Shown here one piece after another: positions 1 through 64,000 of a stretch of DNA of 64,000 bases. The translations under genes and the position numbers were made by a program. Each line of letters begins with the position of its first letter. Position 1 is the first letter of the stretch. The notes below the pieces were generated by a model. That model searched no databases. It had not been told where the DNA came from and saw nothing but the letters and a program-made list of their open reading frames with translations. Origin of the DNA: Betaproteobacteria bacterium GR16-43 (lineage in GTDB: Bacteria; Pseudomonadota; Gammaproteobacteria; Burkholderiales; Usitatibacteraceae); assembly GCA_001953215.1 (NCBI GenBank), contig CP019169.1, positions 3,038,001 through 3,102,000 on the forward strand, in the 5' to 3' direction.

Positions 1-2867
1 CAGCCGGTGCCCGCGTTCAGGATCTGCGCGGTGGCCAGTATGTTCATGCCCCGGATCAGCCAGATCGCGGCGCGGCCGTCGGTATGCTCGAAGTAGACGT
101 CGCTGTATCCATCGCCGTTGAAGTCTCCGACGTGCTTCACCTTCCAGCCGGTGTTGTCGCCCAGGAGCTGCGGGCCGTTGGCATTCGGGCTGAGCCAGAT
201 GGCCGCGCTGCCCTGCGCGCTGCGCCACAGGAGGTCCTTGGTACCGTCGGCGTCGAAGTCCGCGACGTGCGTGAGGGTCCAGCCGGCGCCGGCGTTCATG
301 ATCGGATAGCTGAGGACTTTCGTGAGTCCATTCATCAGCCAGATCTCGTAGCGCCCGTCGGTGTGCGCCATCACGAGATCGTCGGTGCCATCGCCATTGA
401 TGTCGCCCACTTGCGCGACGTACCAGCCGGTGCCCGCGGCGCGAAGCGTGTCGCCCGCGATCATGGTTGTGCCGTCCATGAGCCATGCGGCGATGCGCCC
501 GTCCGGGTGCCGGAAGAGGAGATCCGCCTTGCCGTCGCCGTTCAGGTCCGGCGTGTTCGTGACGACCCACCCGTCGCCCGCGTTGAAGATCTGCTGCGTG
601 GCGGTCGGCACGCGCCCGTCCATGAGGTAGAGCGCGGTGCGGCCGTCCGTATGGCGCCACATCAGGTCGCTCTTGCGGTCGCCATTGAGGTCCGCGATGT
701 GCGTCACGCTCCAGCCCGTGCCCGCGTTGATGATCTCTCCGCCGTCGGTGGTCGTGAGCCCGTCCAGCATCCAGATCGCGGCGCGTCCATCGGTGTGCGA
801 CCAGAGGATGTCGGTCTTGGCGTCCGCGGAAAAGTCGAGGGACTGCGCGCGCTTCGCGACGTAGAGGCCGTCTTCCAGCGAGAGCGACAAGGTGCGGCCG
901 CCGTTCGGCGCGCTGCCGAAGGTGCGGATGTCGGATCCGCCGAGGCCGGCGGAGTAGGCAGTCCAGCTCACGCCGCCGTCGACGGATCGATACACCGCGG
1001 GCTGGCCCGCCGGGGCGCCGACGCCGATCAGCACCGGGCCGGTGTTGTGGGCTGTGGAGGCGACATCAATGCGTTCGACGTTCTGGCCCGCGAAGACCTG
1101 CGTCCACGTGTCGCCGTTGTCGATGCTCTTCCATGCCCCGGAGGAGGCGGGCAGCGTGCCGTCGGGATTGAGATGGCTGTTGGCGAGCCAGACCTGGTTC
1201 CCGAAGTCGGGCTTCGTGAACACGCCGGCGGTGGGCAGGAGCTGCCCGGCCGAGTCGAGCGCGGTGTAGATCGCGGTCCACGTCTCGCCGCCATCGGTGC
1301 TGCGGTACACGCCCGCGTCGGTCGCGGCGTACGCGTACCCGTTCTGCGTGAAGGCGAGGCTGTTCACCACGCGGGAGGCACGCGTGGCTAGACCGACGTT
1401 CGCCGCGTGCCAGTTCGCTCCACCATCCGTCGAGCGGTAGACGCCCGAGCCCTGGAGGTTGGACATGCCCGCGAGCAGCTTCGACGCGTTGGTCGGATCG
1501 ATCGCCAGCTTGGGCGACTGGGCGCCGAGGGACGGCAGCCCGGTGTTGACGGCACTCCAGAGCATGCCGCTGTTCACGGTCTTGAAGATGCCCCGGTTGT
1601 TCGTCGTGACGTAGAGCGTCGGGGCGTTCGATCGCACCTGCAGCAGAGTGCCCTCGGTCGTGTGGCCGGTGATGCCGCCGTCCCAGGCGGCTGCCGCGCC
1701 GTAGCCCTCCAGTTCCAGGTTGCTGATGCGGCGGACCGTATTCGTCGCGAGCAACACGGTGCGGCGGTCCGCGACGTCATGGACGATGGAGTTGGCGCGG
1801 CCGTGGCCGAGGTAGAGCCCGCTGGGCTTGGCCACCGCGTTGCCGCTGAGATCCACGATCGAGATGCCGGCCAGCGTGTTTGCGTAAATGCGCCCGTTGG
1901 GACTGCCGGTGATCACGCCGCGCACGACCCCGAGGGTGGAATCGGCCGCAGGGTCTGCCCAGAGCGTCCATGTGGCGCCATCGTCGGTGGTGCGATAGAC
2001 GCCGTGCTTGTCGAGGCCCACATAGAAGGTGTTGGTGCCGGTCCCGCGCGAGAACCCCGAAAGCACGACGGCTCCGGCGGGCAGGCCCGTGTTGCTGGGC
2101 GCCCACGTGGCGCCACTGTCGGTGGACTTGTAGATCCCTTCGCCCTCGACGTACGCGAGCGCCACGCCCGTGGTCGTGGAGAAGATCAGGTGGTAGACGG
2201 TCGGGTTCGCCGACACGAAGCCGGTGTTGGACGGGACGAAGGTCGCGCCGTCGTCGTTGCTGCGGTAGATGCCGCCATTGTTGGTGTTGACCATGATCGC
2301 GAAGCCGGAGACGACGATCGACTGCACGCGAATGTCCCCGGGCAGCGTGAGGCCGCCCAGCCGCGTCCACGTGGCACCGCCGTCCGTGCTGCGGAAGACG
2401 CCGCCTCCGCTCGTGCACGATGTGCCCGCGTAGATGGCGGACCCGAAGATCGTGAGCCCGCGGATGTAGGGGCATCCGATCGCCGTGGCGCCGCTGCCAC
2501 TGCGCGGGGACCACGTGGCGCCGCCGTCCGTGGTGCGGTAGACGCCGTGGCCTTCGGGGGCCGCGTAGATCGTGCTTGCGCTGGATGCCGCGATGTTCTG
2601 CAGCCGCAGCGACGGCAGGCCCGTGTTGGCCTGCACCCAGCTCGCGCCGGTGCCGGAGACCTCCACCTTGAAGAAGCCGGCGCCCAGGGTTCCGGCGTAG
2701 AGCGTGTCGGTACCGGCCACGGGGGTGTTGAAGAACGACGTCATGCCGCGAACGATGGGTTCGGGCGCGCCACGCGCCTCCCATTGCGCGGCGGCGGGAA
2801 GCGTCGCGGCCAGGGCCGCGGCAAGCAGGATCGATGCGGACTTCGAGATGCGGATCGTGTGCGCCAT
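1..2867 (-). CDS. G1: secreted BNR/Ycf48-like propeller fused to FG-GAP propeller (3' end outside window)
   Basis: The reading frame starts at ATG 2867-2865 and is open to the window edge, giving 955 visible codons. Residues 1 to about 27 are a Sec signal peptide (MAHTIRISKSASILLAAALA start, AAAQ-like cleavage site). Residues about 30-660 hold many copies of the sialidase/BNR Asp-box motif, for example GVYRSTDGGATW, typical of Ycf48/sortilin-like propellers. From about residue 673 the FG-GAP propeller begins; six of seven blades are visible. Blade 5 is atypical, with WLSPNANGP replacing WLMNG. The FG-GAP part is much closer to that of G2 than to the rest of the array. A purine-rich AAGAGA lies 9 nt upstream of the start. 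The BNR head suggests a carbohydrate- or protein-binding scaffold; no sialidase catalytic residues were identified. The exported location is inferred. Confidence 0.88.
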   Translation of the reverse strand, partial: MAHTIRISKSASILLAAALAATLPAAAQWEARGAPEPIVRGMTSFFNTPVAGTDTLYAGTLGAGFFKVEVSGTGASWVQANTGLPSLRLQNIAASSASTIYAAPEGHGVYRTTDGGATWSPRSGSGATAIGCPYIRGLTIFGSAIYAGTSCTSGGGVFRSTDGGATWTRLGGLTLPGDIRVQSIVVSGFAIMVNTNNGGIYRSNDDGATFVPSNTGFVSANPTVYHLIFSTTTGVALAYVEGEGIYKSTDSGATWAPSNTGLPAGAVVLSGFSRGTGTNTFYVGLDKHGVYRTTDDGATWTLWADPAADSTLGVVRGVITGSPNGRIYANTLAGISIVDLSGNAVAKPSGLYLGHGRANSIVHDVADRRTVLLATNTVRRISNLELEGYGAAAAWDGGITGHTTEGTLLQVRSNAPTLYVTTNNRGIFKTVNSGMLWSAVNTGLPSLGAQSPKLAIDPTNASKLLAGMSNLQGSGVYRSTDGGANWHAANVGLATRASRVVNSLAFTQNGYAYAATDAGVYRSTDGGETWTAIYTALDSAGQLLPTAGVFTKPDFGNQVWLANSHLNPDGTLPASSGAWKSIDNGDTWTQVFAGQNVERIDVASTAHNTGPVLIGVGAPAGQPAVYRSVDGGVSWTAYSAGLGGSDIRTFGSAPNGGRTLSLSLEDGLYVAKRAQSLDFSADAKTDILWSHTDGRAAIWMLDGLTTTDGGEIINAGTGWSVTHIADLNGDRKSDLMWRHTDGRTALYLMDGRVPTATQQIFNAGDGWVVTNTPDLNGDGKADLLFRHPDGRIAAWLMDGTTMIAGDTLRAAGTGWYVAQVGDINGDGTDDLVMAHTDGRYEIWLMNGLTKVLSYPIMNAGAGWTLTHVADFDADGTKDLLWRSAQGSAAIWLSPNANGPQLLGDNTGWKVKHVGDFNGDGYSDVYFEHTDGRAAIWLIRGMNILATAQILNAGTG

Positions 2868-2950
2868 GTTGGGTTCTCTTGAATTCTTTGGGGGGGATTC
2901 TACAGGCGGTGCGCTCCGAACTCGTCGGTGTGCTGTCAGAGTAGATCGTC

Positions 2951-5395
2951 CTAGTACAGCCCGTTACCCCACTGCAGCGCGGTCCCGCAGCTCGGCGCCC
3001 CGTACGCGCAGCCGTTGTGCTCGTATCGAACGTTGATGTACCAGGGGCCGCCGGCTTCGGGCAGGCGGCACATCCCGGGAGGCACGATTGCTCCTGTAGA
3101 TGTCGTCCACATCAGTTCGTTGTAGTTGAGGTTCATGGCGCGGAGGTAGCAAACGTCGCCGTAGGTGGGATCGATCTGCTGCGTGTGATACGAGAGGTCG
3201 CCGGGGCACTTCGAGAACGCCATCGTCATCACGGCGGGATTCGGCGTGTAGGCAGCGGACGTTTCTCCGCTCATGAGGATCCCCGAGATCCGGTTGCCTG
3301 ACAGGTGCGGGACCTTCGTTGCGCCGATGACCCCCTGCGGCAGCAGGACGAGGAGGGGCACATTGATCGCCTGCAGGTCGGGCAGCATTACCACGTTCGA
3401 CGGGAGAGCAGGGCAGTCGCTCGCTCCCTGGTTCGAGGCTTCCGCGCTCGCGATGCCCCAGCCGGAACCGGGGCCGAGGATCTCGAGTCCGTCCACCAGT
3501 GTCGTGCCGTTCATCAGCCACGCGGCCACGCGGCCATCGGTGTGTTGCCAGAGGATGTCGGCCTTGCCGTCGCCGTTCAGGTCCGCCAGCGCCTTCGCGC
3601 TCCAACCGGTTCCCGCGTTGAGGATCTGCGCCGTCCCCAGGACGTTGAATCCCTTCATGAGCCAGATCGCGGCGCGGCCGTCGTCATGCTCGAAGTAGAC
3701 GTCGCTCGCGCCGTCGCCATTGAAGTCGCCGATGTGCTTCACCTTCCAGCCCGAGTTGTCGCCGACGAGGTTGGGTCCATCGCTGTTGGGGCTGAGCCAG
3801 ATTGCGGCGCGGCCCTGCACGTAGCGCCACACGAAGTCCTTCGTGCCGTCGCCGTCGAAATCGCCGAGGTGCGTGAGCGTCCAGCCTACGCCCGCATTCA
3901 TGACCGCATAGCTTCGGACCTTCGTGAGCCCGTTCATGATCCAGACTTCGTAGCGCCCGTCGGTGTGCGCCATCACGAGGTCGTCGGCGCCGTCGCCGTC
4001 GATGTCGCCCACCTGGGCCACGCTCCAGCCCGTGCCCGCACCGCGCAGCGTATCGCCCGCGATCATCGTCGTGCCGTCCATGAGCCACGCGGCAATGCGC
4101 CCGTCGGTGTGCCGGAAAAGGAGGTCCGCCTTGCCGTCGCCGTTCAAGTCCGGCGCGTGGGTGACGGTCCAGCCGTCACCCGCGTTGAAGATCTGCTGCG
4201 TGGTGGTGGGGACGCGGCCATCCATGAGGTAGATCGCGGTGCGGCCGTCGGTATGGCGCCACACGATGTCGCTCTTTCCGTCGCCGTTGAAGTCCGCGAG
4301 GTGGGTCACGCTCCATCCCGTGCCGGCGTTGATGATCTCGCCACCGTCGACCGTCGAGAACCCGTCCATCATCCAGATGGCGGCGCGGCCGTCCGCGTGC
4401 GTCCACAGGAGGTCGCTCATGCCGTTGCCGTTGAAGTCGGCGCCCGGTGCGGGGATGGGCAAAGACGCATCGAAAGGCCGAACGGTGTACGTCGTGGAGA
4501 TAGTGCCGCGCCCGCTGATCCCGTCGATCTTCACCGTGTATCGGCTGCCCGCGACGATCGTGGTCTGTGGCACGAAGACGATCGTGTTGTCGCCCGCGCT
4601 CGTGTCGTTGTTCGAGAGCACGGTCACGCCGATCGGAACGCCGTTGGCCGTCATCGATACGGTGGCGAAATCGAAGCGCCAGCTATAGAAGTCGCCGAGG
4701 GAGTAGGACCAGCGGTTCGACGCCGGCAGGACCTGGATGGGCACGTAGCCGCCCGCCGGCCACGCGGAACCGTATTGGTCCGCGTCTCGCCCCGAGCGAT
4801 CGCGGAACGTGCGCACCGCGCTGCCTCCCGACATCGCACCCACGGGTGCTGCACCAACGGCGACGCTCGGCTGCACGCGGTAGAGGATCCAGCGCCGGTC
4901 GGGCACCGCTTCGTTGCCGCTGCCGGCGTCGTCCATGTACAGGGGGATGACATCGTCGGTGGCGGAGCTCGCAACGCTCGAGATCGCCGCCGCGTTCGAA
5001 GCGGCGGGCAATAGCGACGTACAAGCGGAGAACGGCGGGTTGACGGGCACGTGGCCCGCCGCCTGGTTGGCCGCGAAGAGCACGGCGGCGGATTGCTGCT
5101 CGCCCTCGCGCGTGGCGTCCGAATCCAGCGTCACGTCGCCGGGCACGCCGGCCATGCGCCGGAAGTAGTTGATGCGCCCGATGGTGAATTGCTTGAACGC
5201 GGGCGAGATCGTTCCTGCGATGCAACCGGCCACCGAGCCCGTGAAACCCATCGCGGGCATGGCGGGTGCGAAGTAGGTGAGGTACGCGTCGCGAACGGCG
5301 CGCTTGGAGCCACGTGCGAAGGGATCCTGCGCGGTGGCGATGGCCGGAAACGATCCGAGGATCAGTGCGGTCGCGATGAGTTTGGGTATCTTCAT
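2951..5395 (-). CDS. G2: CAP/SCP-domain secreted protein with FG-GAP propeller and extra C-terminal domain
   Basis: This 814-residue protein has a signal peptide at 1-22. A bacterial CAP (SCP/PR1-like) domain lies at about 33-185 with the family hallmark RINYFRRMAGVPGDV at 74-88. A beta-rich linker at about 225-310 (DNTIVFVPQTTI) joins it to a seven-bladed FG-GAP propeller at about 318-655. A Cys-containing domain of about 155 residues follows, ending GTALQWGNGLY; I do not recognise it, and no other complete gene here continues past the propeller. CAP proteins bind ligands in a cavity built around two His. H115 is present, but the second (GHRRW in G10 and G11) is replaced by PDRRW with D166, so the canonical site looks altered. 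AGGA lies 3-6 nt before ATG 5395. The stop of G3 is 15 nt upstream, so cotranscription is likely. Blade 5 carries the unusual WLSPNSDGP seen also in G1. Confidence 0.92.
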   Translation of the reverse strand: MKIPKLIATALILGSFPAIATAQDPFARGSKRAVRDAYLTYFAPAMPAMGFTGSVAGCIAGTISPAFKQFTIGRINYFRRMAGVPGDVTLDSDATREGEQQSAAVLFAANQAAGHVPVNPPFSACTSLLPAASNAAAISSVASSATDDVIPLYMDDAGSGNEAVPDRRWILYRVQPSVAVGAAPVGAMSGGSAVRTFRDRSGRDADQYGSAWPAGGYVPIQVLPASNRWSYSLGDFYSWRFDFATVSMTANGVPIGVTVLSNNDTSAGDNTIVFVPQTTIVAGSRYTVKIDGISGRGTISTTYTVRPFDASLPIPAPGADFNGNGMSDLLWTHADGRAAIWMMDGFSTVDGGEIINAGTGWSVTHLADFNGDGKSDIVWRHTDGRTAIYLMDGRVPTTTQQIFNAGDGWTVTHAPDLNGDGKADLLFRHTDGRIAAWLMDGTTMIAGDTLRGAGTGWSVAQVGDIDGDGADDLVMAHTDGRYEVWIMNGLTKVRSYAVMNAGVGWTLTHLGDFDGDGTKDFVWRYVQGRAAIWLSPNSDGPNLVGDNSGWKVKHIGDFNGDGASDVYFEHDDGRAAIWLMKGFNVLGTAQILNAGTGWSAKALADLNGDGKADILWQHTDGRVAAWLMNGTTLVDGLEILGPGSGWGIASAEASNQGASDCPALPSNVVMLPDLQAINVPLLVLLPQGVIGATKVPHLSGNRISGILMSGETSAAYTPNPAVMTMAFSKCPGDLSYHTQQIDPTYGDVCYLRAMNLNYNELMWTTSTGAIVPPGMCRLPEAGGPWYINVRYEHNGCAYGAPSCGTALQWGNGLY

Positions 5396-5410
5396 TTTCC
5401 TGGTTTCACG

Positions 5411-7708
5411 TTAAAGGCCCGAGGCCCAGATGCTCCATCCCGTGCCGGCGGGAAGGATCTCCGCAGAATTCGTCATCGCCGTGCCGTTCATGAGCCAGAT
5501 GGCCACGCGCCCGTCGGTGTTCTCCCAGACGATGTCGGCCTTGCCGTCGCCATTGAAATCCCCGAGGCGCTTGGCAGTCCATCCGCCGCCCGCGTTGAGG
5601 ATTTGCGTCTGCATCGCGGGGGCCAGGCCGTTCATGAGCCAGATGGCCGCGCGCCCGTCCGGGTGCTCGAAGTAGAGGTCGGCCTTGCCGTCGCCGTCGA
5701 AGTCGCCGACGTGCTTCACGTTCCAGCCCGAGCCGGGGCCGAGGATGCCGGTGCCCGAAGTCATGACCGCGCCATTCATCAACCAGACGGCGAGCGATCC
5801 ATCGGTGTGGCGCCAGAGGAGGTCGGCCTTGCCGTCTCCATCGAGATCCGGGGTCTGGATCGCGGTCCATCCGGATCCCGCATTGAGGATCGTCGCTCCG
5901 GACTTCAGCGTGAGCCCGTCCATGAGCCAGATCGCGTGGCGGCCGTCCTCGTGGACCCAGAGGAGGTCGTGCTTGCCGTCCCCGTCGAAGTCCGCGACGC
6001 GGGCCACGCTCCATCCCGTGCCGGCGCCGAGGAAGTCGGCGGTGGCGCCAAGGGCGTAGCCGTTCATCGCGCGCGCGGCGACACGCCCGTCCGTGTGGCG
6101 AAGCAGCAATTCAAGACGACCGTCCCCGTCAAGGTCCGGCACGTGCGTGACGGTCCAGCCGCTTCCGGCCGCCAGCACCAGCGTCGGCGGGTACGCGCCG
6201 TTGGTTGCCGAGCGCCAATCGACTTCCGCGCGGCCGTCCGTGTTCTGCCACACGAGGTCCGGGTAGCCGTCGACGTCGAAGTTGCCGCTGTGGATGACGC
6301 TCCATCCCGTGGCCGGCCCGTTGATCTCGGCCGTCACGGTGGGCGTAAGGCCGTTCATCAACCACATGGCGCTGCGTCCGTCTCCGTGGCTCCACACGAG
6401 GTCGGTGTTGCCGTCGCGGTTGAAGTCGGTTGCGGGCGGGGGAAGCACGCGAAGGGTGACTTCCGCCTCCTGGTAGGCGAGGCCGTAGCTCACGCGGTAG
6501 CGGAAAGAGTCGGGGCCCGCTGCCGGCGGCCGCCAACGATACGTCGCGGTGGGACCGTTGAAGTCCACGGTGCCGCGCGTGGGGGCGCGCACCAGCGAAT
6601 AGGTCAGCACGCCGCCGTTGCCGATGGAGCCGGGCAGCGAGAACACCTTGAATGCGTAGCCGTTCACGACGGCGCTCGTATCCGCCGCGCTCAGGCCGTT
6701 GTAGAGGCGGTGGATGCGAATGCCGCCCTCCACCTTCACCATCAACAGGGAGCCGTCGGCTGAGATTTTCGTCCTGCCCGGGGTGTACGCCCACCCGCCG
6801 GTAATGCCAAATTGATATCCGAAATCGTACGCACCGACCTGCGTGATGGGATTCGTCGCCGTGTTGTACACGCGCACCTCACGGGTCGTTCCCCATGGAA
6901 AGTACGCGAGGTTCTCGACGGGATGGTAGGCGCCGGCGATCGGCTGGTCCCCTCCGAAGTCACCGATGATTTGCACGCCGGGCTGCCCGACGTTCCACAC
7001 GCCTGCGCGACCGCGATTGTCGGGCGCCATGACTTGCGTACCGCCCTGGTTGACCGCCACTTCGTACGAGGTGCCGACTCCGCCGACCCTCGAGACCTGT
7101 CGTGTCGCGGCGTCGTAGAGGCTGATTTCGTTCGAGTACTCGGCCCCGGCGATGGCAATCTTGCGGCGATTGCCGCTCGCCGCGAGCATTGCGTTGTCTT
7201 CGGCGAATCCAACGCGGGAGAAGTTTCCCAGCGGATCGTAGCGCCGCAGCGGATGCGATCCACCCGTCGTGGTCAAGGACTCGCTCGAGAAGAGAATCGC
7301 GCCGTCGAAGTCGAAGGCCACGGAATGCACAACGTCTTCCGTGCTGAACGGCTCCGTGTCGGTCACGGTCACCGGTATAGGAGATCCGGTCTCGAGGTTG
7401 TAGAGATGGAGTCCGTTGACGAACGAGTTCCAGTCTCCCGCGGCGAGCCTCCCGGCATCGGACGAGATATCGATCCCCATGAGGTAGGCGCCGGGAATCG
7501 ACCAGGGCGTGAGGAACGTCGCGCTTCCGACGTGGTAGCGCAGGATGGCGCCGGCGGTCGCGATGTACATCACGTCGCGCTTGAAGTCGTGGACCATGTC
7601 GATGGCGCCGGGGTCGCCGCCGACCGGCACCAGCGTGCCGACGGTTTGCGCCTGGGCCTGCGCTGACAGGCAGGTCGCGGCCAGTGCGGCCAGGATCGTT
7701 TTTTTCAT
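5411..7708 (-). CDS. G3: YVTN/WD-like propeller with Ig-like domain and FG-GAP propeller
   Basis: This 765-residue protein has a clean signal peptide at 1-20 (AQAQA-QTVG). Residues about 25-345 look like a YVTN/WD40-type propeller: repeated short strands such as IAIAGAEYSNEISLYDAATR, with no enzyme motif. Residues about 347-417 resemble the Ig-like/cadherin-like domain that carries GTVDFNGPTATYRW and DSFRYRVSYG. Seven FG-GAP blades fill about 420-765. Blade 2 is degenerate (DGRAEVDWRSATNG), as is blade 3 (AARAMNG). The start at 7708 is supported by the signal peptide; the Shine-Dalgarno is weak (TAAGA). It lies 20 nt after the G4 stop and 15 nt before the G2 start, consistent with one transcript. 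Function is unknown; the architecture suggests a binding scaffold. Confidence 0.9.
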   Translation of the reverse strand: MKKTILAALAATCLSAQAQAQTVGTLVPVGGDPGAIDMVHDFKRDVMYIATAGAILRYHVGSATFLTPWSIPGAYLMGIDISSDAGRLAAGDWNSFVNGLHLYNLETGSPIPVTVTDTEPFSTEDVVHSVAFDFDGAILFSSESLTTTGGSHPLRRYDPLGNFSRVGFAEDNAMLAASGNRRKIAIAGAEYSNEISLYDAATRQVSRVGGVGTSYEVAVNQGGTQVMAPDNRGRAGVWNVGQPGVQIIGDFGGDQPIAGAYHPVENLAYFPWGTTREVRVYNTATNPITQVGAYDFGYQFGITGGWAYTPGRTKISADGSLLMVKVEGGIRIHRLYNGLSAADTSAVVNGYAFKVFSLPGSIGNGGVLTYSLVRAPTRGTVDFNGPTATYRWRPPAAGPDSFRYRVSYGLAYQEAEVTLRVLPPPATDFNRDGNTDLVWSHGDGRSAMWLMNGLTPTVTAEINGPATGWSVIHSGNFDVDGYPDLVWQNTDGRAEVDWRSATNGAYPPTLVLAAGSGWTVTHVPDLDGDGRLELLLRHTDGRVAARAMNGYALGATADFLGAGTGWSVARVADFDGDGKHDLLWVHEDGRHAIWLMDGLTLKSGATILNAGSGWTAIQTPDLDGDGKADLLWRHTDGSLAVWLMNGAVMTSGTGILGPGSGWNVKHVGDFDGDGKADLYFEHPDGRAAIWLMNGLAPAMQTQILNAGGGWTAKRLGDFNGDGKADIVWENTDGRVAIWLMNGTAMTNSAEILPAGTGWSIWASGL

Positions 7709-7728
7709 GGCGGAATCTTACTCGCAGC

Positions 7729-14763: not shown

Positions 14764-14890
14764 GGGCTCACTCCCGAAACGCTCCATCCCGTGCCGGGGC
14801 CGAGGATCTCCTGCCCGCTCATCATCGAGGTGCCGTTCATCAACCATACGGCCACGCGTCCATCCGTGTGCTCCCACACGATGTCGGATT
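14703..14890. repeat. Junction repeat copy 1 (G6 3' end plus G5 5' end)
   Basis: The bases covering the last codons of G6, the overlapping GTGA start and the signal peptide of G5 match 18041-18228 closely at nucleotide level, at a constant offset of 3338 nt. That offset is the length of the G6 repeat unit, so a whole gene unit was probably duplicated in tandem or the junction was converted. Confidence 0.75.
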
Positions 14891-18101: not shown

Positions 18102-18228
18102 GGGCTCACCCCCGAAACGCTCCACCCCGTGCCGGGCCCGAGGATCTCCTGCCCGCTCATCATCGAGGTGCCGTTCATCAACCACACGGCCACGCGTCCA
18201 TCCGAGTGTTCCCACACGATGTCGGCTT
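18041..18228. repeat. Junction repeat copy 2 (G7 3' end plus G6 5' end)
   Basis: This is the partner of the copy at 14703-14890. Differences are scattered single bases, mostly silent. One of them makes the ATG of G5 an ATA here, which fixes the GTG start of G6. Confidence 0.75.
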
Positions 18229-21675: not shown

Positions 21676-21700
21676 CGTGTTGCGTCAGGTGCGGGGTGGG

Positions 21701-35756: not shown

Positions 35757-36110
35757 TCGGATGCCTCTGTGTCTTGTCGTGAAAAAGTGGATACGCCGGT
35801 ACCTGACAGCAAGATTCGGACCGCCCCGGTTTCGGGGGTTTTGAGACGGATTGCGTCGTTGCAAGGCGACAACCCGGCTGTCTTCAGAGTGTCGCGGCCT
35901 CTCGCGTGGGGTCCAGCCGCGCCCGTTCCGGCGAGTCGCCCGGCGGAGACAAAGTGCCGAAGATTGCGCATCCGCACCCGGACCCCCGCCGTATCGCGTG
36001 GGTGGCACGAGTGCGAAGCTTCACAGTGGCCGGGCGAAATCCTCTTTATGATTCGCCGGTTTGGGACGCGCACGGGCGGCAACGCCGATCAACGAACAGG
36101 GATAAAAAGA
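35757..36110. promoter_or_regulatory. 354-bp divergent intergenic region between the two arms
   Basis: This is the only gene-free stretch over 300 bp, and it separates leftward G12 from rightward G13, so both promoters should be here. For G13, a TATGAT at 36047-36052 is a plausible -10, with TTCACA at 36020-36025 as a poor -35 (21-nt spacing). AGGGA precedes ATG 36111. No convincing leftward -10/-35 pair was seen. Open frames cross the region on both strands but begin without ribosome-binding sites and lead into the signal peptides, so I see no gene in it. Confidence 0.55.
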
Positions 36111-45405: not shown

Positions 45406-45427
45406 CAACAATCGGGAGGCGGTGCAC

Positions 45428-56054: not shown

Positions 56055-56076
56055 GAAGACTAGGCGCGGCGGTACG

Positions 56077-56109: not shown

Positions 56110-56158
56110 CTTGCGCGAAGCGCGGGCATAGTGGATTCCTCGATAGAGAGGAACCACC

Positions 56159-59100
56159 ATGGTCCCCGTTTCCGCGCATCGCCTTCTCGCCGCGCTCGCA
56201 TTCCTGCTGTTCTCGATGGTCGCGCACGCCCAGCAGATCGAGCGGCCCACCAACGTCGTCGCGACCGCGGGCGTGGGGCAGGCGACGATCACCTTCTCGC
56301 CTTCCGTGTGGCACGGCGCGCAGGGGCCCAGCGGCTACGAGGTGTTTTCGACGCCGGCCGGCGGCGTGGACGTCACGGGAAGAAATACCTCCACGACGCA
56401 CGTCGTGAAGAACCTCGTCGCGGGCCAGGCCTACACGTTCATCGTTCGCGTGTACGACTTCGGCGGCACGTACGTGAATCTCTCGTTCCCCTCCAACAGC
56501 GTGACGCCGACGGCCGGCCCGCCCGAGGTGCCGACGAACTTCACCGTGGTCCCCGGCGTCGGCCAGGCGACGCTCACCCTCACGCCGCCGGTCAACAATG
56601 GCGGAGCGGCGATCACGAGCTACACGGCGACGTGGTCGCCTGCGCACGGCGTCGACACGTCGGCGGGAACGAATGCGACCACGCGCGTGATCACCGGCCT
56701 CACCAACGGCGTGCAGTACACGTTCTCGGTGGTGGCCACCAATCCGTCGGGCTCGAGCCCGGCCACGCCGCAGGTGCAGGCCATCCCGCGCGCGGCCGCG
56801 GCCACGATCACCGTCAACAATCCGTTCGACAACGACAACCTCTGCACGCTGCGCCGCGCGGTGGAGAACGCGAGCGGCTTGTACCCCGCGCATCCGCAGT
56901 GCGCGCCGGGCGCGTTCGATACGACGATCGCCTTCGACTACTTCGGGTACGACACCTACGCCATCGGGCCGGAGCCGCTGAACCTCGCGAACAACTCGAC
57001 GGCGGCTGCGTCGATCACGCTGCAGGGCAACGGCCGCGGCCGCACGATCATCAACGGGCAGGGTGCGACGCGCATCTTCGAGAACGACCCGCCGAATCCC
57101 ATCACGATCCGCCTGAAGGACCTGAGTGTCGTGAACGGCCACAACGAACTGCCCGGCATTCCGAACGACCTCTCGCGCGGCGGGGCGATCTACTTCTCGC
57201 CGGGCGCCACGGCTTACCTGGACAACGTGGCGGTGGTGAACAACAACGGTTCGCAGCTCTCCGCGGTCTACAGCCGCGGCAGCCTCACGGTCTCGCGCAG
57301 CACGTTCCAGGGCAATGGCACGGGCAACTCCGGTTTCGCCGGCGCCATCACGAGCTACGGCGGGCTCGTCGTCTCCGACAGCACGTTCGAGGGCAACACG
57401 GGTTACGTCGGCGGGGCGATCCTGCATTTCGTCAACGACGGCAATCCCGCGAAGGCGCTCACGATCTCCAACAGCACGTTCACGGGCAACCACGGCGTGT
57501 CGCAGGGTGGGGCGATCTTCGAGAACTCGAACGTGCCGACGACCCTCACGCACGTCACCATCACCGGCAATTCCACCGACGAGGGCAGCTTCCAGCAGGG
57601 CGGAGGCGTGGTGCACGGCGGGCCGGGCGTGTTCACGCTCGACCGCAGCATCATCGCGGGCAACACGTCACCGATGGGGGCGGATTGCATGACGTTCGTG
57701 TCGTTCAACCAGATCGTGTCGGCGGGCTACAACGTCGTGGGTTCGCTGCAGGACTGCAACATCACCGGGAACACCGCGTCCAACATCGTCGGGCCCGCCC
57801 TGCTCGGTGCGATCGGTGAGAACGGCGGGCCCACGCGCACGATCGCGCCGCTGGCCGGCAGCCCCGCGATCGACCGGGCGCCTACGTGCACGAGCGCGTT
57901 CGACCAACGCGGACGATCGCGTCCGCAGGGCGCAGGCTGCGAGAGCGGGGCCTTCGAGATCACGGCGCCCGATGCGCCCTACGATGTTTCGGCGTCCATG
58001 GCCAGCACGCAAGCCACGGTGACGTTCACGCCGCCGGGTGTCGACGGCGGTTCCCCGATCACGGGCTACACCGTCGTCTCCAATCCCGCGGGTGGCGTGG
58101 ACACGAATGCCAACACGCTTGCCACGAGCCACGTCGTGACCGGCCTCGTGGATGGCGTGACCTATGTGTTCACGGTTCGCGCGGTGAACGCGATCGGAAC
58201 GGGCCCCGCTTCGGATCCCTCGTACCCCGCCGTGTTCGCGACGGTGCCGGGCGCGCCGTCCATCTTCGCGGTCAATACCGGCAATGGATCGGCCACGGTG
58301 TTCTTCAGCGCGCCTGCACTCGACGGCGCATCGCCCATCACGGGCTACACCGTGACGTCGAATCCTGCGGGCGGCACGGACAGCAACGCGGGTACGCTGG
58401 ACGACCCGCACGTCGTCACCGGGCTCACGAATGGCGTGGCCTACACCTTCACCGTCACCGCGACGAATTCCGTGGGGACCGGCCCGGCCTCCGCGCCTTC
58501 GGGCAGCGTGACGCCGAACGTCGTTCCCGATGCGCCGAGCAACGTCGTGGCCGCGGCCACGGGCGGCAGCACGGCAACCGTGACCTTCGCCGCGCCCGCG
58601 CCCAACGGGGGCACATCGGTCACGGGCTACAGCGTGTTCTCGGAGCCGAGCGGTGCGGTGGACATCAACGCGGGTTCCACGTCGACGTCGCATGCGATCA
58701 CCGGCCTGCAGTCCGGCAACGTCTACACGTTCTACGTCGTCGCGACGAATGCGGCCGGCAGCGGCCCGGCGTCGGCGCCTTCGAACGCGCTGTCGTTCGT
58801 GACCGTGCCCGCGGCACCGAACATGATCGGCGCGACGCCGTTCAGCAATGCCGGTCCTGTTCAAGTGGTGTTCGACGGGCTGGTGAACGACGGCGGCTCG
58901 CCGATCACGGGCTTCACGGTGTATTCGAATCCGCCCGGCGGTGTCGACCCGCAGGCGAACACGCTGGCGCAAGCGCACAACATCACCGGCCTCACGCCGG
59001 GTGTGTCGTACACGTTCACCGTGCGCGCGAGGAACGCGATCGGGGAGGGCCCGGCGTCGCAACCTTCGAATGCCGTGACGCTCTCCGGCCCGCCCGGGGC

Positions 59101-60679
59101 GCCCACGAACGTGACCGTGACGTACGGGTCGCAACCGATGACGCTGGTCGTGAGCTTCACGCCGCCCGCGGACAATGGCAGCTCGCCGATCACGGGCTAC
59201 TTCCTCTCGAGCCCGCAGTTCATCAACGACGCGGACGGCGGCACGACGAAGACCTCGCACCTGATCGTCTCGCTGAGTTCCGACACGACTTACACATTCA
59301 CGGCGCGAGCCCGCAACGTGAACGGCTTCTCGTCCTTCTCGGCGGAATCCAACGCGATCTACCTCAACCAGCGGCCGGGTGCGCCGACCAACGTGACGGC
59401 CGAAGCGCGCAGTGGCGAGGCGCTCGTGTCGTTCGCGGCGCCGGCGTATCGCGGCAACTATCCGCCGACCGGCTACACGGTCACCTCGGTGCCCGGCGGG
59501 GTCAGTGCAACGGGCGCGTCTTCACCGCTCGTGGTCGGCGGCCTCACCAACGGGATTGCGTACACGTTCGTGGTGACGGCGCAGAGCCTGGCGGGGCCGG
59601 GCGACATGTCCGCGCCCTCGAACAGCGTGACGCCCGCCAATCCGCCGGCGAAGCAGCGCGAGGTCGATTTCAACGCCGACGTGAAGTCGGATGTGCTCAT
59701 CCGCAACGTCGATGGCAGCTCCGCCATCTGGCTGATGAACGGCACGGCGATCGCCTCGAGCACGCAGATCTTCCCCGCGGGCACCGCGTGGCAGGTCGCG
59801 CACATGGTCGACCTGAACGGCGATTTCAAGACCGACCTCGTGTGGCAGCACCCGGACGGCCGCGTGACCGTGTACCTCATGGACGGAGCGACCGCGGTCA
59901 CGAAGCAGTTGATCCTGCCCGCGGGTGGCGGCTGGACGGTGACCCAGGCGGCGGACCTCGACGGCGACGGCAAGGCCGACCTCGTCTTCCAGAATGCGGA
60001 CGGCACGCTCGCCGCATGGCTGATGAACGGGGCCACGATGACCGCCGGGGGAACGATCCTCGGCCCGGGCAGCGGCTGGAGCATCACGAAGACCGGGGAC
60101 TTCAATGGCGACGGCAAGGCCGATCTGCTGTTCACGCACACCGATGGCCGCGTCGCGATCTGGCTCATGAACGGCCTCACCCCGATCCAGCAGACGCAGA
60201 TCCTCAATGCCGGATCCGGCTGGAGCGTTTCGCACGTGGCCGACCTCGATGGCGACGGCAAGGCCGACCTCGTCTGGCGCAACACCGACGGGCGCGTGGC
60301 TGCGTGGCTGATGAATGGAACCGCGATGACCTCCGGCGCGGAGCTGCTCAACGCGGGTACCGGGTGGACCGTCACCAGGACGGGCGACTTCGACGGCGAC
60401 CACAAGGCCGACCTCCTCTTCGAGCACACCGACGGGCGGGTGGCGATCTTCCTGATGAACGGCCTCACGCCCGTGACGACCACGCAGATCCTGAACGGCG
60501 GGAGCGGCTGGAGCGTGAAGCGCACGGCCGACTTGAATGGCGACGGGAAGAGCGACCTGGTCTGGCAGAACGCGGATGGGCGCATCGCGGTGTGGTTGAT
60601 GAACGGCACGACGATGGTGGGCGGGAGCGAGGTCCTGGGGCCCGGCACGGGATGGACCGTGTCCACCGTGAGCCAGTAG
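56159..60679 (+). CDS. G19: fibronectin III / beta-helix secreted protein with FG-GAP propeller
   Basis: At 1506 residues this is the longest gene here. ATG 56159 follows GAGAGGA and gives a signal peptide ending near 24 (SMVAHA-QQIE). Two fibronectin III domains (about 27-215) are followed by a parallel beta-helix region (about 220-530; repeats such as VSRSTFQGNGTGNSGFAGAI). A choice-of-anchor-Q-like segment follows (NGGPTRTIAPLAGSPAID, DQRGRSRPQG, SGAFE; about 530-600). Six more fibronectin III domains (about 602-1160) each begin like PGAPTNVT and contain SPITGY and TYTFTVRA. FG-GAP blades run from about 1167. Such a head suggests an extended adhesin or polysaccharide-binding surface protein, though some beta-helices are lyases; I saw no catalytic set. 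A possible regulator-binding array precedes it. The closest paralogue modules are absent from this window. Confidence 0.93.
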   Translation: MVPVSAHRLLAALAFLLFSMVAHAQQIERPTNVVATAGVGQATITFSPSVWHGAQGPSGYEVFSTPAGGVDVTGRNTSTTHVVKNLVAGQAYTFIVRVYDFGGTYVNLSFPSNSVTPTAGPPEVPTNFTVVPGVGQATLTLTPPVNNGGAAITSYTATWSPAHGVDTSAGTNATTRVITGLTNGVQYTFSVVATNPSGSSPATPQVQAIPRAAAATITVNNPFDNDNLCTLRRAVENASGLYPAHPQCAPGAFDTTIAFDYFGYDTYAIGPEPLNLANNSTAAASITLQGNGRGRTIINGQGATRIFENDPPNPITIRLKDLSVVNGHNELPGIPNDLSRGGAIYFSPGATAYLDNVAVVNNNGSQLSAVYSRGSLTVSRSTFQGNGTGNSGFAGAITSYGGLVVSDSTFEGNTGYVGGAILHFVNDGNPAKALTISNSTFTGNHGVSQGGAIFENSNVPTTLTHVTITGNSTDEGSFQQGGGVVHGGPGVFTLDRSIIAGNTSPMGADCMTFVSFNQIVSAGYNVVGSLQDCNITGNTASNIVGPALLGAIGENGGPTRTIAPLAGSPAIDRAPTCTSAFDQRGRSRPQGAGCESGAFEITAPDAPYDVSASMASTQATVTFTPPGVDGGSPITGYTVVSNPAGGVDTNANTLATSHVVTGLVDGVTYVFTVRAVNAIGTGPASDPSYPAVFATVPGAPSIFAVNTGNGSATVFFSAPALDGASPITGYTVTSNPAGGTDSNAGTLDDPHVVTGLTNGVAYTFTVTATNSVGTGPASAPSGSVTPNVVPDAPSNVVAAATGGSTATVTFAAPAPNGGTSVTGYSVFSEPSGAVDINAGSTSTSHAITGLQSGNVYTFYVVATNAAGSGPASAPSNALSFVTVPAAPNMIGATPFSNAGPVQVVFDGLVNDGGSPITGFTVYSNPPGGVDPQANTLAQAHNITGLTPGVSYTFTVRARNAIGEGPASQPSNAVTLSGPPGAPTNVTVTYGSQPMTLVVSFTPPADNGSSPITGYFLSSPQFINDADGGTTKTSHLIVSLSSDTTYTFTARARNVNGFSSFSAESNAIYLNQRPGAPTNVTAEARSGEALVSFAAPAYRGNYPPTGYTVTSVPGGVSATGASSPLVVGGLTNGIAYTFVVTAQSLAGPGDMSAPSNSVTPANPPAKQREVDFNADVKSDVLIRNVDGSSAIWLMNGTAIASSTQIFPAGTAWQVAHMVDLNGDFKTDLVWQHPDGRVTVYLMDGATAVTKQLILPAGGGWTVTQAADLDGDGKADLVFQNADGTLAAWLMNGATMTAGGTILGPGSGWSITKTGDFNGDGKADLLFTHTDGRVAIWLMNGLTPIQQTQILNAGSGWSVSHVADLDGDGKADLVWRNTDGRVAAWLMNGTAMTSGAELLNAGTGWTVTRTGDFDGDHKADLLFEHTDGRVAIFLMNGLTPVTTTQILNGGSGWSVKRTADLNGDGKSDLVWQNADGRIAVWLMNGTTMVGGSEVLGPGTGWTVSTVSQ

Positions 60680-60729
60680 GGGGAATCCGGCCGTGACCCG
60701 GGGGGAAAGGCGCTGGTTTCGGATGTAAG

Positions 60730-60757
60730 AACGCTTGCGTTAAGGCTTCGGTAGAAT
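60730..60757 (+). promoter_or_regulatory. Possible promoter elements upstream of G20
   Basis: TAGAAT at 60752-60757 matches a -10 hexamer in five of six positions. No -35 lies at normal spacing. An inverted repeat AACGC-TT-GCGTT (60730-60741) lies just upstream and shares AACGCT with the repeats before G19. Confidence 0.3.
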
Positions 60758-60787
60758 GTCGCCAGACTTAACAACAAGCAAAAACAG

Positions 60788-63787
60788 ATGCGCACGCTCT
60801 CCCTGGTATTCGCGGCTTTCCTGGCCTTCGCGGTGCCCGCGGCGGCCCAGACCCGGCTCTGGATCCAGAGCGATTCGGGGGACTACATCGGGCAGGGCGT
60901 GACGCACACGTACACGCACCCGGCCGAACCCGTCACGTACTACTCGTCCTCGCCCAGCGCGGTCACGGTGTCCGCCGGCGGCTACACGCTCGACGTGGTG
61001 GCGCCCCAGGGCGCGGTCCTCGGCGCCGGCCCCTACGAGAGTGCGGCCCGCTACCCGTTCCAGGGCAACTCGCCCGGGCTCAACTTCTCCGGCAACGGCC
61101 GGGGCTGCAACACGCTGACCGGCCGCTTCGTCGTGCTCGCCGTCTCGTTCAACGGCAGCGGCGGCATCTCCAGCCTCGCGGTGGACTTCGAGCAGCATTG
61201 CGAGGGCGGCACCGCGGCCCTCTGGGGCGAGCTGCGCATCAATTCCGCCTTGCCGCTCACGGTCGAGAAGCCCCCCGGTTCCACCGTGCCCGACAACATG
61301 ACCTTCGGCGGGCAGCTCGCCGTGCCGCCGTCGACGCTCGTCACCTCCGGCGCCAGCACGGTGTACGGGATCAACGCGCCCGCGGCCATCTCGGTGGTCG
61401 ATGGCGAATACAGCATCGATGGCGGCGCCTTCACCTCGGTCGCGGGCACGGTGACCAATCGCGCGCATGTGCGGGTGCGGGGAACTTCGTCGACCACGCC
61501 GGGCGCGGTGAAGTACGTGACGCTGCTGGTCGGCGGCGATGCGGTCGGCAGCTTCTCGATCGCCACCTACCTGCCGGGGTCGGTGCAGACAGGCCTCGTC
61601 GTCGACAGCTTCCCGGGCGACTACATCGGGGGAGGGCAGTTCCTCTTCGCGCGCGCTCCGGATTGGACCGTCGCTTTCAACTCGAGCTATTCGAACGCGA
61701 TCGACGGCACGGGCCCCAACGGCCGCCGCTTCTCGCTCACGCTGCGCGCCGCGGGCAGCGAGGCGCTCGCGGTCGGCCCCTACGAGGATGCGGTGCGCGC
61801 GGGCGGCGCGAGCGCGTCCCCGGGGCTCGACCTCAGCATGGACTCGCGCGGCTGCAACCGGATCGCCGGCCGCTTCGTGGTGCTCGAGATCGACCTCAAC
61901 GCCGTTCCGAAGCGGCTCGCGGTCAACTTCGAACAGTGGTGCGAGGGCTCGAGCCAGCCGCTCTTCGGCGAGCTGCGCATGAACTCCACCATCCCGTATT
62001 TCTTCCAGGCGCCCGCCGGCGATGCGCAGCCCGACGCGATGGGCCTCACCGCGCAGAACCCCGTGCGCGCGGGCTCGATGGTGTCTTCGAACTTCACGCG
62101 CATCTACGGTGTGAACGCCCCGGTGCCGATCTCGATCTCCGGCGGTGGGGAGTACAGCGTGAACGGCGGCGCCTTCACCTCGGCCGCCGGGACCGTGAGC
62201 GAGCTCGACTCGATCCAGGTCCGCCTCAAGGCCTCGGCCACGCCCAATGGGGTGAAGACGGCCACGCTCAACGCGGGCGGCACCCTCTCGAACTTCCAGG
62301 TCCGGACCTACGGCCCGGGCACGGTGGTGAACGGGCTCTACTTCAGCAGCAGCCCCGGCGATTACGTCGGCCTCGGCCAGACGAAGTTCTATCCCGCGCC
62401 TCCGAACCGGATGTCGGTCCAGCCGTACGGCACCGGGGCGTACTTCAGCTTCGACGTGGTCGGCGGCACGTGGTGGAGCCTCATCATCGGCGCGGCCGGC
62501 GGCGCGCAGCTTGCCCCCGGGACGTACGAAAACGCGCAACGTTTCGCCTCCGGCACCAACCCCGGACTCGACTTCAGCGGCGACGGTCGTGGCTGCAACC
62601 AGCAGGCCGGGCGCTTCGTCGTCCACGAAGCCGTGTATTCGTTCGGCACCCTGGTCAAGTTCGCCGCGGACTTCGAGCAGCACTGCGAGGTCACCGGTCC
62701 GCCGCTGCGCGCGCAGGTGCGCTTCAACACGACCGTCCCGTTCAGCCAGTACCTCGCGCAGAACGTGCCGCAGGACCTGAGCGGCGAAGGTTTCGACGAT
62801 CTCCTCTGGCAGCATCCGGACGGGCGCCACGCGCTGTGGCTGATGAACGGAACGTCGGCCACCGCGACGGGCGAGATCCTCGGCGCGGGCACGGGCTGGA
62901 ACGCCACGCATGCGGCCGATTTCGACGGCGACGGCAAGGCCGACGTCGTGTGGCAGCACACCGACGGACGCATGGCGATCTACCTCATGAACGGGCAGGT
63001 GCCCACGGCCACGCAGCAGCTCCTCAACGCCGGCAGCGGCTGGACGGTCACGCATACCTCGGACTTCACCGGCGACGGCAAGGCGGATCTCCTGTTCCAT
63101 CACACCGATGGCAGCACCTCGATGTGGCTGATGAACGGCCTCGCGGTGACGGGTGGCACGACGCTGGTCGGCCCGGGCAGCGGATGGAGCGCCACGCGCA
63201 CCGGCGACTTCGACGGCGACGGCAAGGCCGACATCCTCTGGACGCACACCGATGGCCGCGTCGCGATCTGGCTCATGGACGGCGCCGGCGTGAAGTCCAC
63301 CAACCAGATCCTGAACGCGGGCAGCGGATGGAGTGCCACGCACGTCGGCGACCTGAGCGGCGACGGCAAGGCCGACATCGTCTGGCAGCACATCGACGGC
63401 CGCGTTGCCGTGTGGCTGATGAACGGCTCCGCGATGGCGAGCGGTGGCGGCATCCTCAACGCGGGCAGCGGCTGGAGCGTGGCGCGCGTCGCGGACTTCG
63501 ACGGCGACGGCAAGGTGGACCTCTTCTTCCAGCACACCGACGGGCGCGCCGCGATCTGGCTGATGGACGGGCTCGTGGCCGCGACGCAGACCCAGATCCT
63601 CAACCCCGCGAGCGGCTGGACGGTGCGCCGGGTGGCGGACCTGAACGGCGACGGTCGTGCCGACATCATCTGGCGCCATACCGACGGGCGCCATGCGGCG
63701 TGGCTCATGTACGGCACGGCGATGACGAGCGGCACCGGCATCCTCGGGCCCGGCACGGGATGGAGCGTCTCGACGGCGGGGCAGTAG
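60788..63787 (+). CDS. G20: protein with triplicated unnamed domain and FG-GAP propeller
   Basis: This 999-residue protein has a signal peptide at 1-21 (AVPAAA-QTRL). Residues about 24-660 hold a repeat with a period near 246. Each unit opens with a domain containing SPGDYIGxGQ, then LAxGPYE-x-A, SGNGRGCN, GRFVVLE and DFEQHCEG with invariant Cys. A second domain follows, with YGINAPVPIS, EYSVNGGAFTSAAGTV and a VR strand. Units start near 24, 270 and 516; the third lacks the second domain. I have no name or function for either domain, although similar sequences seem widespread in secreted bacterial proteins (from memory). FG-GAP blades fill about 663-999 and are very regular. The stop is 2 nt before the ATG of G21, so they are cotranscribed. 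The Shine-Dalgarno is weak. Confidence 0.92.
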   Translation: MRTLSLVFAAFLAFAVPAAAQTRLWIQSDSGDYIGQGVTHTYTHPAEPVTYYSSSPSAVTVSAGGYTLDVVAPQGAVLGAGPYESAARYPFQGNSPGLNFSGNGRGCNTLTGRFVVLAVSFNGSGGISSLAVDFEQHCEGGTAALWGELRINSALPLTVEKPPGSTVPDNMTFGGQLAVPPSTLVTSGASTVYGINAPAAISVVDGEYSIDGGAFTSVAGTVTNRAHVRVRGTSSTTPGAVKYVTLLVGGDAVGSFSIATYLPGSVQTGLVVDSFPGDYIGGGQFLFARAPDWTVAFNSSYSNAIDGTGPNGRRFSLTLRAAGSEALAVGPYEDAVRAGGASASPGLDLSMDSRGCNRIAGRFVVLEIDLNAVPKRLAVNFEQWCEGSSQPLFGELRMNSTIPYFFQAPAGDAQPDAMGLTAQNPVRAGSMVSSNFTRIYGVNAPVPISISGGGEYSVNGGAFTSAAGTVSELDSIQVRLKASATPNGVKTATLNAGGTLSNFQVRTYGPGTVVNGLYFSSSPGDYVGLGQTKFYPAPPNRMSVQPYGTGAYFSFDVVGGTWWSLIIGAAGGAQLAPGTYENAQRFASGTNPGLDFSGDGRGCNQQAGRFVVHEAVYSFGTLVKFAADFEQHCEVTGPPLRAQVRFNTTVPFSQYLAQNVPQDLSGEGFDDLLWQHPDGRHALWLMNGTSATATGEILGAGTGWNATHAADFDGDGKADVVWQHTDGRMAIYLMNGQVPTATQQLLNAGSGWTVTHTSDFTGDGKADLLFHHTDGSTSMWLMNGLAVTGGTTLVGPGSGWSATRTGDFDGDGKADILWTHTDGRVAIWLMDGAGVKSTNQILNAGSGWSATHVGDLSGDGKADIVWQHIDGRVAVWLMNGSAMASGGGILNAGSGWSVARVADFDGDGKVDLFFQHTDGRAAIWLMDGLVAATQTQILNPASGWTVRRVADLNGDGRADIIWRHTDGRHAAWLMYGTAMTSGTGILGPGTGWSVSTAGQ

Positions 63788-63789
63788 GG

Positions 63790-64000
63790 ATGCGCGCGCT
63801 CTCGCTGCTCGTCGCCGCCACGGCACTCCTGTGCGGCAACGTCCAGGCCCAGTATCCGGTGCAATCGCTCGTGATCGAGGGGCCCTCGGAAATCAACAGC
63901 CTCGTGGACCTGAACGTCCAATACCGGGCCAAGGCGGTGTTCACCGACGGCAGCACGGGCTACGTGAACGCGATCTGGCACGCGAACTCGAACGGGTACG
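63790..64000 (+). CDS. G21: secreted Ig-like protein (5' end only)
   Basis: ATG 63790 lies 2 nt after the G20 stop, and GGGG (63778-63781) is 8 nt upstream, so translation is probably coupled. About 70 residues are visible: a signal peptide (MRALSLLVAATALLCGNVQA, cut before QYPV), then a segment reading LVIEGPSEINSLVDLNVQYR and later FTDGSTGYV, the usual start of a bacterial Ig-like (Big2-type) domain. The window ends inside it. By position it is expected to end in another FG-GAP propeller, but that cannot be seen. Confidence 0.8.
   Translation, partial: MRALSLLVAATALLCGNVQAQYPVQSLVIEGPSEINSLVDLNVQYRAKAVFTDGSTGYVNAIWHANSNGY

Follow-up and report, generated by a model that had tools for sequence, protein, structure and literature searches.

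The 64,000-nucleotide stretch of Betaproteobacteria bacterium GR16-43 studied here (the window, bases 3,038,001–3,102,000 of the single 4.81-Mb contig of this genome, which is called G000, its relatives being G002, G003 and so on) contains 21 genes whose products carry a seven-bladed FG-GAP-type beta-propeller, hereafter the module, together with heads (the cargo) of many kinds. We found that this propeller is copied as a unit, stands on many heads, is typical of the genome that carries it, occurs at either end of related cargo and is replaced in sister genomes. Nineteen of the genes are complete, p23 being cut at the left edge and p43 at the right edge. A 354-bp gap at 35,757–36,110 separates the twelve genes of the minus strand from the nine of the plus strand, both sets being transcribed away from it; a sigma-70 consensus was looked for in this gap and none was found. 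The array runs on beyond both edges of the window, on the right immediately and on the left after a 6.5-kb gap. A hidden Markov model (HMM) of the blade built from the window genes assigned seven blades to each of the 19 complete genes and, once the flanks were added, to p23 and p43 as well. The proteins end 16–17 residues past the last blade match in 18 of the 19 complete genes, the exception being p24, in which 179 more residues follow. A preliminary description made from the letters of the window had claimed the array, its blade number, its continuation past both edges and the near-terminal blade 7, and all of these were borne out by the blade HMM and the flanking genome. The neighbours p23 and p24 have in common the approximately 178 extra residues after blade 7 (window 1–866 and 2951–3490); the extra tail of p24 had no match in Pfam, and the part of it scanned against NCBIfam had none there.

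A search of the whole genome with a profile of 47 modules returned 52 matches, corresponding to 50 genes (p34 being split in two) and a weak open reading frame (ORF) at 1.596 Mb. The 50 module genes (p01, p02 and so on) comprise 15 at 2.646–2.715 Mb (array A), 30 at 3.005–3.110 Mb (array B) and five singles. All 50 are seven-bladed, although two blades of p06 are poor (11 and 8 bits), and 48 end 13–19 residues past the last match; the ORF at 1.596 Mb, with its weak and different blades, and a 5-bit stray match far upstream in p11 were dropped from the count. In the split p34 module (window 32703–33752), the first blades match profile positions 198–343, which suggests that blades may have been shuffled inside it. 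A candidate signal peptide was present in all 50 genes by our own heuristic, with the start re-picked by eye in four, which is in keeping with the claim that the proteins are secreted. The features of LPXTG, PEP-CTERM and GlyGly-CTERM tails (motif, transmembrane helix and basic cluster) were not seen on reading the sequences, the ends of which are beta-strand (..GTGWSVS..) and not helix, as had also been noted earlier for the window.

The p32 module matched the Pfam family FG-GAP_3 (PF13517, VCBS/FG-GAP) above the cut-off with 194.7 bits in 7 stretches, and AlphaFold2 with the 47-row alignment predicted 28 strands, that is 7 × 4, in blades that close into a ring, at a mean predicted local distance difference test (pLDDT) score of 94. 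Aspartate occupies the first and last columns of the DxDxDG calcium loop in 98–100% of the G000 blades, and the GW motif in loop DA' has G in 0.90 and W in 0.98 of them. The residues before this W differ by genome, with GTGW in G000, EW or AW forms in G010 and PNW in G041, the G being mostly replaced by E and A in G010 and by N and D in G041. One member, p10 (L011 16036–17175), consists in its 380 residues of almost only signal peptide and propeller, and resembles the near stand-alone propellers in the Nostoc and Scytonema loci L034 and L030.

The heads were scanned in 40 of the 50 proteins, 20 in the window and 20 elsewhere. Pfam and NCBIfam named BNR/sortilin, PQQ_2/SBBP, delta-60 (DUF5122), sugar dehydrogenase (GSDH), reprolysin metzincin with Calx-beta, and fn3 among the window heads, so that most of the head names given in the preliminary description stood; 7 of the 20 window heads had no Pfam family at E 0.001. 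Two of its names did not hold up. The CAP identity of p24, p32 and p33 remained unconfirmed, with no match in Pfam (three heads), in NCBIfam (two heads scanned) or in PDB (by profile), and the AlphaFold model of a CAP-like head reached a pLDDT of 38 only. The head of p30, described as hydrolase-like, had no match in Pfam or NCBIfam. Outside the window the heads include GH44, RCC1, NHL, subtilase, cytochrome-like, InlB-type and Ig-type domains. No member of the trypsin family was found in the 20 window heads or in the 20 further ones, and membership of the umbrella toxins was ruled out, no trypsin-like head being found among these 40.

Table 1. Module genes and the divergent gap in the window (window coordinates).
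Feature	Position	Strand	Description
p23	1..2867	-	BNR/sortilin-like head and propeller; C-terminal part and 178-aa extra tail outside the window, to the left
p24	2951..5395	-	CAP-like head (unconfirmed), seven-blade module, then extra tail of ~179 residues
p25	5411..7708	-	unnamed head; module 5414-6454
p26	7729..11241	-	PQQ_2/SBBP head; module 7732-8763
p27	11320..14787	-	delta-60/DUF5122 head; module 11323-12369
p28	14760..18101	-	DUF5122 head; module 14763-15803; start re-picked by eye
p29	18098..21526	-	DUF5122 head; module 18101-19132
p30	21701..24700	-	unnamed 650-aa head; module 21704-22744; head 74% identical to a G010 head with six-blade module
p31	24841..28344	-	DUF5122 head; module 24844-25872
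p32	28449..30524	-	CAP-like head (unconfirmed); module 28452-29510, the one modelled by AlphaFold
p33	30580..32661	-	CAP-like head (unconfirmed); module 30583-31638
p34	32700..35756	-	fusion of GSDH with an unnamed domain (p34N); module 32703-33752; main cargo in comparing the tags
divergent gap	35757..36110	.	354 bp between the two transcription directions
p35	36111..39359	+	reprolysin metzincin and Calx-beta head; module 38319-39356; start re-picked by eye
p36	39456..41699	+	PQQ_2 head; module 40632-41696
p37	41833..45405	+	PQQ_2/SBBP head; module 44377-45402
p38	45389..48988	+	PQQ_2/SBBP head; module 47957-48985
p39	48961..52464	+	SBBP head; module 51436-52461
p40	52461..56054	+	head without Pfam match, homologous to p39; module 55011-56051
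p41	56159..60679	+	eight fn3 stretches; module 59642-60676
p42	60788..63787	+	unnamed head; module 62750-63784
p43	63760..64000	+	signal peptide and first residues; seven-blade module right of the window

Copying, genome specificity and position of the module

When the blades were compared between proteins, each was closest to the same-numbered blade of the other proteins in 7 of 7 rows (diagonal 53–69%), and thus whole modules were copied. Blades 3, 5 and 7 resemble one another, as do blades 4 and 6, more than they resemble the blades next to them, the vestige of an earlier repeat of two blades. Modules that are alike occur on unlike heads as far as 1.3 Mb from one another, with a module DNA identity of 89.7% for p01/p46, 88.5% for p10/p18 and 87.3% for p13/p22, the last two having RCC1 and subtilase heads. 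The edges are sharp; among the 25 pairs listed, less two alignment artefacts of 1 and 10 bases, identity in the high-identity pairs falls to 14–46% within the first 50 bp beyond the module on both sides, the sole exception being p21/p22, with 50 identical bases after the stop. The synonymous difference of p11/p12 is 0.20 in the module as against 0.43 in the head. In 60 random module pairs the mean synonymous difference (pS) was 0.48, near that of unrelated head alignments, so that most module pairs are old. Furthermore, the nonsynonymous divergence (dN) of the modules was well below the synonymous divergence (dS) in the 16 pairs listed, and therefore the modules are under purifying selection. 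These findings support the view that the propeller acts as a single unit independent of its cargo.

Within the family, a few genomes (G003, G010, G023 and G041) were found to have strong relatives of the module, and G006, G009, G011, G013, G015 and G021 to have weaker matches, 23–31 in each. Of two complete genomes of the same genus, G002 had no module match and G004 had two weak ones, and in a sample of the class a match at 1e-20 was obtained in 8 of 368 other genomes. In a tree of 102 module rows from five genomes, the genome label changed four times, the minimum possible, as compared to 43.7 times in shuffles, with the caveats that G023 does not form a single clade and that the G010 group is weakly supported. 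In G010, 30 of 36 module rows are six-bladed (one gene being counted twice in overlapping stretches), as against seven blades in G000.

The heads behave differently from the modules. Across 40 cross-genome pairs of homologous heads the identity of the modules was near the cross-genome background (mean z 0.33). The p30 head matches that of a G010 protein at 74% over 635 aa while the modules are 42% identical, and since on reading the sequences the G010 homolog aligns with the G000 head almost to the end of the head, this is a clean module swap. The p22 and p02 heads match G041 heads at 58% over 920 and 64% over 675, respectively, and GSDH and CAP-like heads are also common to several of these genomes. 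Strong p22 homologs are carried only by G000, G023 and G041 among 28 family genomes, and p30 homologs were found in two of 369 class genomes, G000 itself and one with a 34% match. On these comparisons, the module follows the genome more than the head.

The module is C-terminal in 47 of the 52 uncut rows of G003, G010, G023 and G041 taken together (one gene being counted twice), and it stands before the cargo in G023 (a CAP-like head and, by eye, a DUF1800-like one) and in G041 (the p02 homolog). In 80 distant loci it was C-terminal in 26, nearly stand-alone in 7, N-terminal or internal in 45 and cut in 2, and both C-terminal and N-terminal positions were present among those examined in the genomes with weaker matches; in the first 12 rows of a cross-phylum search, 11 had tails of 20 residues or less. 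C-terminal placement is not obligatory for the propeller. The finding that the preliminary description had named as its own refutation, a propeller standing mostly at internal or N-terminal positions in relatives, thus holds for the distant relatives, but neither for G003, G010, G023 and G041 nor for the first 12 rows of the cross-phylum search.

Other tails on the same cargoes

The p34N domain was followed through the related genomes. It ends in the propeller in G000, G003, G010 and G023, in two WRSP repeats in G002 and in a second copy of G003, in two ISTRG repeats in G004, in an Ig-like region with a dockerin in G017 and G024, and in DUF4214 (E 1.1e-49) in G018; the G005 copy is cut. GSDH proteins of four of these genomes carry the same tails, both p34N and GSDH ending in two WRSP repeats of approximately 120 residues each in G002, in two ISTRG repeats of approximately 128 residues each in G004, and in the Ig-like region and dockerin in G017 and G024 (PF00404, E 1.1e-05 on the G024 GSDH copy, other copies being assigned by homology). 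The p34N domain and its closest GSDH homolog had the same tag class in 5 of the 5 genomes that have them on separate readable genes (G002, G004, G017, G023 and G024), the p34N copy of G023 being cut by a contig end. The WRSP and ISTRG modules (L217, L242–L243) had no Pfam family at E 0.001 and no confident match to a solved structure.

The sister genome G004 was found to have an array of its own. Ten of its 12 full ISTRG tags lie at 3,447.8–3,480.1 kb and the other two at 3,055.9–3,061.4 kb, with a mean identity of 68% (51–83%). Eleven of the 13 heads of this set match a G000 head at 100 bits or more (two further partial rows being excluded), and these are two CAP-like heads, metzincin, GSDH, p34N, four RCC1-like, an NHL-like and a p09-like head. 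In 262 G004 genes, sampled from stretches that were partly picked for those head matches, the largest group sharing a C-terminus is an 11-member ISTRG set and the next has three members; the largest such group among 283 sampled G002 genes is also of three. Sister genomes therefore have the same cargoes with unrelated tails in place of the propeller.

Possible function of the propeller

The explanation that we consider best, with about an even chance of being right, is that the propeller is the genome's own docking module for exported proteins, that it is exchangeable, and that related cargo is retained by it on a producer-specific receptor. The cargo would be exported through Sec and, in a probable second step, through the type II system; outside the cell it would be held by the propeller on a receptor specific to the producer. 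The likeliest such receptor is the producer's own capsule or matrix polysaccharide, which would be bound in pockets at the GW loops between blades. Sister genomes would retain their cargo by other modules (the ISTRG pair, the WRSP pair, dockerin and DUF4214) for other receptors, and cargo moving between arrays would acquire the tag in use there, through gene conversion or an exchange of domains. We infer the receptor, the retention and the export route, and see in the propeller a docking module open to exchange and not a sorting signal tied to the protein end; the tail comparison suggests that the tail is the genome's own address label or anchor. By analogy, it is probably a lectin directed at the surface glycan of the cell that makes it. 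In Bap1/RbmC, the propeller binds VPS, the exopolysaccharide of the same cell (PMC10102183), and the GW loop contributes to the sugar pocket in PVL and tachylectin-2, which are VCBS-related (PMC8023676). The glycan genes beside array B, the C33 array of G010 and the G004 array, described below, also speak for a glycan receptor. The constant propeller as a docking or anchoring module had been proposed in the preliminary description, and the unit behaviour, the clustering by genome and the tail swap on the same cargo speak for it, whereas a terminal tail turned out not to be obligatory; the proposal is partly supported, right in direction and not in detail. A bolder form, which may be possible and is put forward tentatively, is that members of the family have a common secreted stock to which each genome has fitted a house docking domain matching its own surface receptor, the tail being a self-recognition code. 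The house domains would then be the seven-blade and six-blade propellers, the ISTRG pair, the WRSP pair and dockerin, with wholesale replacement when lineages or cargoes change hands.

Several observations weigh against the docking reading. A genome may hold two tags, as in G003, which has p34N twice with one copy for each of two tags, and both G000 (in a second GSDH) and G003 have WRSP-tagged proteins. Distant GSDH paralogs (33–41%) in G000, G002 and G004 are without any of these tags, and p34N ends in fn3 and a short hydrophobic end in G019 and G043 and differently again in G042. No recognised glycan genes were found at the edges of array A, and Capsule_synth, present in 8 of 28 family genomes, occurs in 3 of the 5 strong carriers (not in G003 and G010) and in 5 of the 23 others. 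Foldseek against PDB and BFVD returned generic propellers only, with a TM (template modelling) score of 0.58 or less among the matches listed, and the 47-row profile matched CRTAC1 and RGL11 lyases in PDB and no lectin. The genome-specific blade residues are not confined to the sugar loop; because differences between genomes are equally large or larger elsewhere in the blades, the GW-loop differences are suggestive only as a sign of sugar binding. In addition, a weak link between head and module remains, because the modules of the five best-scoring cross-genome head pairs lie at background percentiles of 0.81–0.92. The monophyly of the modules per genome is also what plain lineage-specific expansion would give.

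Such an expansion with gene conversion and no matching function, in which a generic stable fold spread beside secreted genes and the likeness within the genome is a by-product of duplicating and recombining genes, is unlikely in our estimate. The sharp edges and low synonymous differences of p11/p12, p01/p46 and p10/p18 do show recombination, and random module pairs are as divergent as old duplicates, but expansion does not predict that cargoes found here bear unrelated modules in sister genomes, nor that two cargoes have the same tag class in every readable genome. The purifying selection on the modules also speaks against it. The propeller could instead be a lectin for foreign glycans (of prey, competitor, plant or detritus) that takes the heads to a target rather than keeping them at home, a reading that seems to us doubtful. 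The solved sequence nearest to one module is PDB 8W20 (E 4.7e-07), from the Streptomyces umbrella particle (PMC11062931), the matching chain presumably being UmbA, whose lectins bind glycans of the target species, with retargeting on a swap of the lectin domain being reported (PMC13274773); in addition, an extracytoplasmic function (ECF) sigma factor lies beside some arrays, and a related Xanthomonas sigma-kinase pair promotes resistance to amoebae (PMC13147305). However, the 47-row profile did not retrieve 8W20 at E 0.001, targeting would favour diverse lectins, as in UmbA, over one near-uniform module on 50 cargoes, and array B lies among the producer's own glycan-export genes. That the folded module is an export signal, read by the type II system or some other exporter, is quite improbable; Bap1 that lacks its propeller fails to be secreted properly (PMC10102183) and the type II secretin was found in 16 of 16 genomes searched, yet it is equally present in non-carriers, and an exporter common to genomes whose tags are unrelated does not fit a signal. 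As a specific partner of the module the secretin was ruled out, being present irrespective of it.

Among known systems, the cellulosome dockerin is one short docking domain on many enzymes, and the same cargoes end in dockerin-like domains in G017 and G024, but the propeller is unrelated to dockerins. The C-terminal domain group of type IX secretion is, to our knowledge, specific to Bacteroidota. The docking module that we favour resembles that of Bap1/RbmC of Vibrio cholerae, secreted modular proteins with one common beta-propeller and other domains with differing jobs (PMC10102183); they are two proteins with eight blades, however, and here there are 50 proteins with seven blades, many head types and putative glycan binding. 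With the VCBS/FG-GAP propellers (PF13517), PVL and tachylectin-2 the module has in common the DxDxDG calcium motif, the GW loop, the signal sequence and four-stranded blades (PMC8023676), and it differs in forming a large genome-uniform set on diverse heads that is exchanged as a unit between genomes. UmbA is likewise secreted, with a C-terminal propeller giving glycan specificity (PMC11062931, PMC13274773), but its trypsin-like head is constant and its lectins vary, whereas here the heads vary and the lectin-like part is constant. LPXTG, PEP-CTERM and GlyGly-CTERM likewise put one common C-terminal region on many unrelated secreted proteins of a genome, but these regions are short (motif, membrane helix and basic end) and processed by a membrane enzyme (PMC3237569), unlike the propeller tail, which is a whole folded domain with no membrane helix and may stand at the other end.

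Families in which the tail type differs between members exist among sorting tails, and tail exchange is already known for these short signals (PMC3237569). No description of such exchange of folded tails was recognised among the open-licence papers that our searches listed, and what is new here is the exchange of entire folded domains throughout a set of exported genes whose cargo can still be recognised. There is a real chance that a wider principle lies behind this variant of the known tail exchange. If the tails are docking domains, the receptor of each genome would be indicated by its tag, a comparison of tags with glycan loci could bring to light many surface receptors that lack annotation, and the propeller would serve as a portable anchor in the display of proteins on a matrix. 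A large class of proteins annotated as FG-GAP/VCBS repeat protein thereby becomes a testable functional class.

Neighbouring genes and further observations

Within approximately 11 kb of array B on both flanks, Capsule_synth, a GT4 glycosyltransferase (GT), Poly_export and a further GT precede the array, and PhyH, a sulfotransferase, a CysN/APS-kinase fusion, a GT and an ABC-2 transporter follow it. Three of the 14 G000 matches to GT family PF00534 lie within 10 kb of the array B edges; in G010 the distance to an array is 10 kb or less for 4 of 16, of which three belong to one locus, and the array on C33 adjoins glycosyltransferases. The G004 array is followed by one TPR protein and then by a GT4/GT2 protein. 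PF05159 as a universal partner gene was ruled out, being present in 8 of 28 genomes and absent from G010.

The ECF sigma family PF07638 (E below 1e-30) was found less than 10 kb from tagged genes in 4 of 4 cases in G010, 1 of 4 in G000 (a second lying at 13 kb), the one examined of three in G041 and 1 of 1 in G004, and G023 has three further members of the family; in G002, neither of two had a WRSP, ISTRG or propeller gene in the surrounding 20-kb stretch, by which a fixed companionship was ruled out. One PF07638 gene, at 2672263, lies inside array A and is followed by a kinase-like ORF recognised by eye (genome 2672242–2675742), and kinase-like genes were recognised in the same way beside several array-linked ECF sigma genes. 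A neighbouring Hanks kinase is the hallmark of the ECF43 group (PMC13147305).

Just before array A, at L009 (genome 2637068–2645858), seven adjacent secreted paralogs have an ADIVLTP-like start. Small proteins that by eye are phage-tail-collar-like lie inside array A (2681940–2682461) and, three in a row, beside p48 (4027789–4029359). In G006, a complete genome of another genus, some long secreted genes of L153, L154 and L171–L173 have near-identical N- and C-terminal ends and differing lengths, which looks like a recent mosaic duplication.

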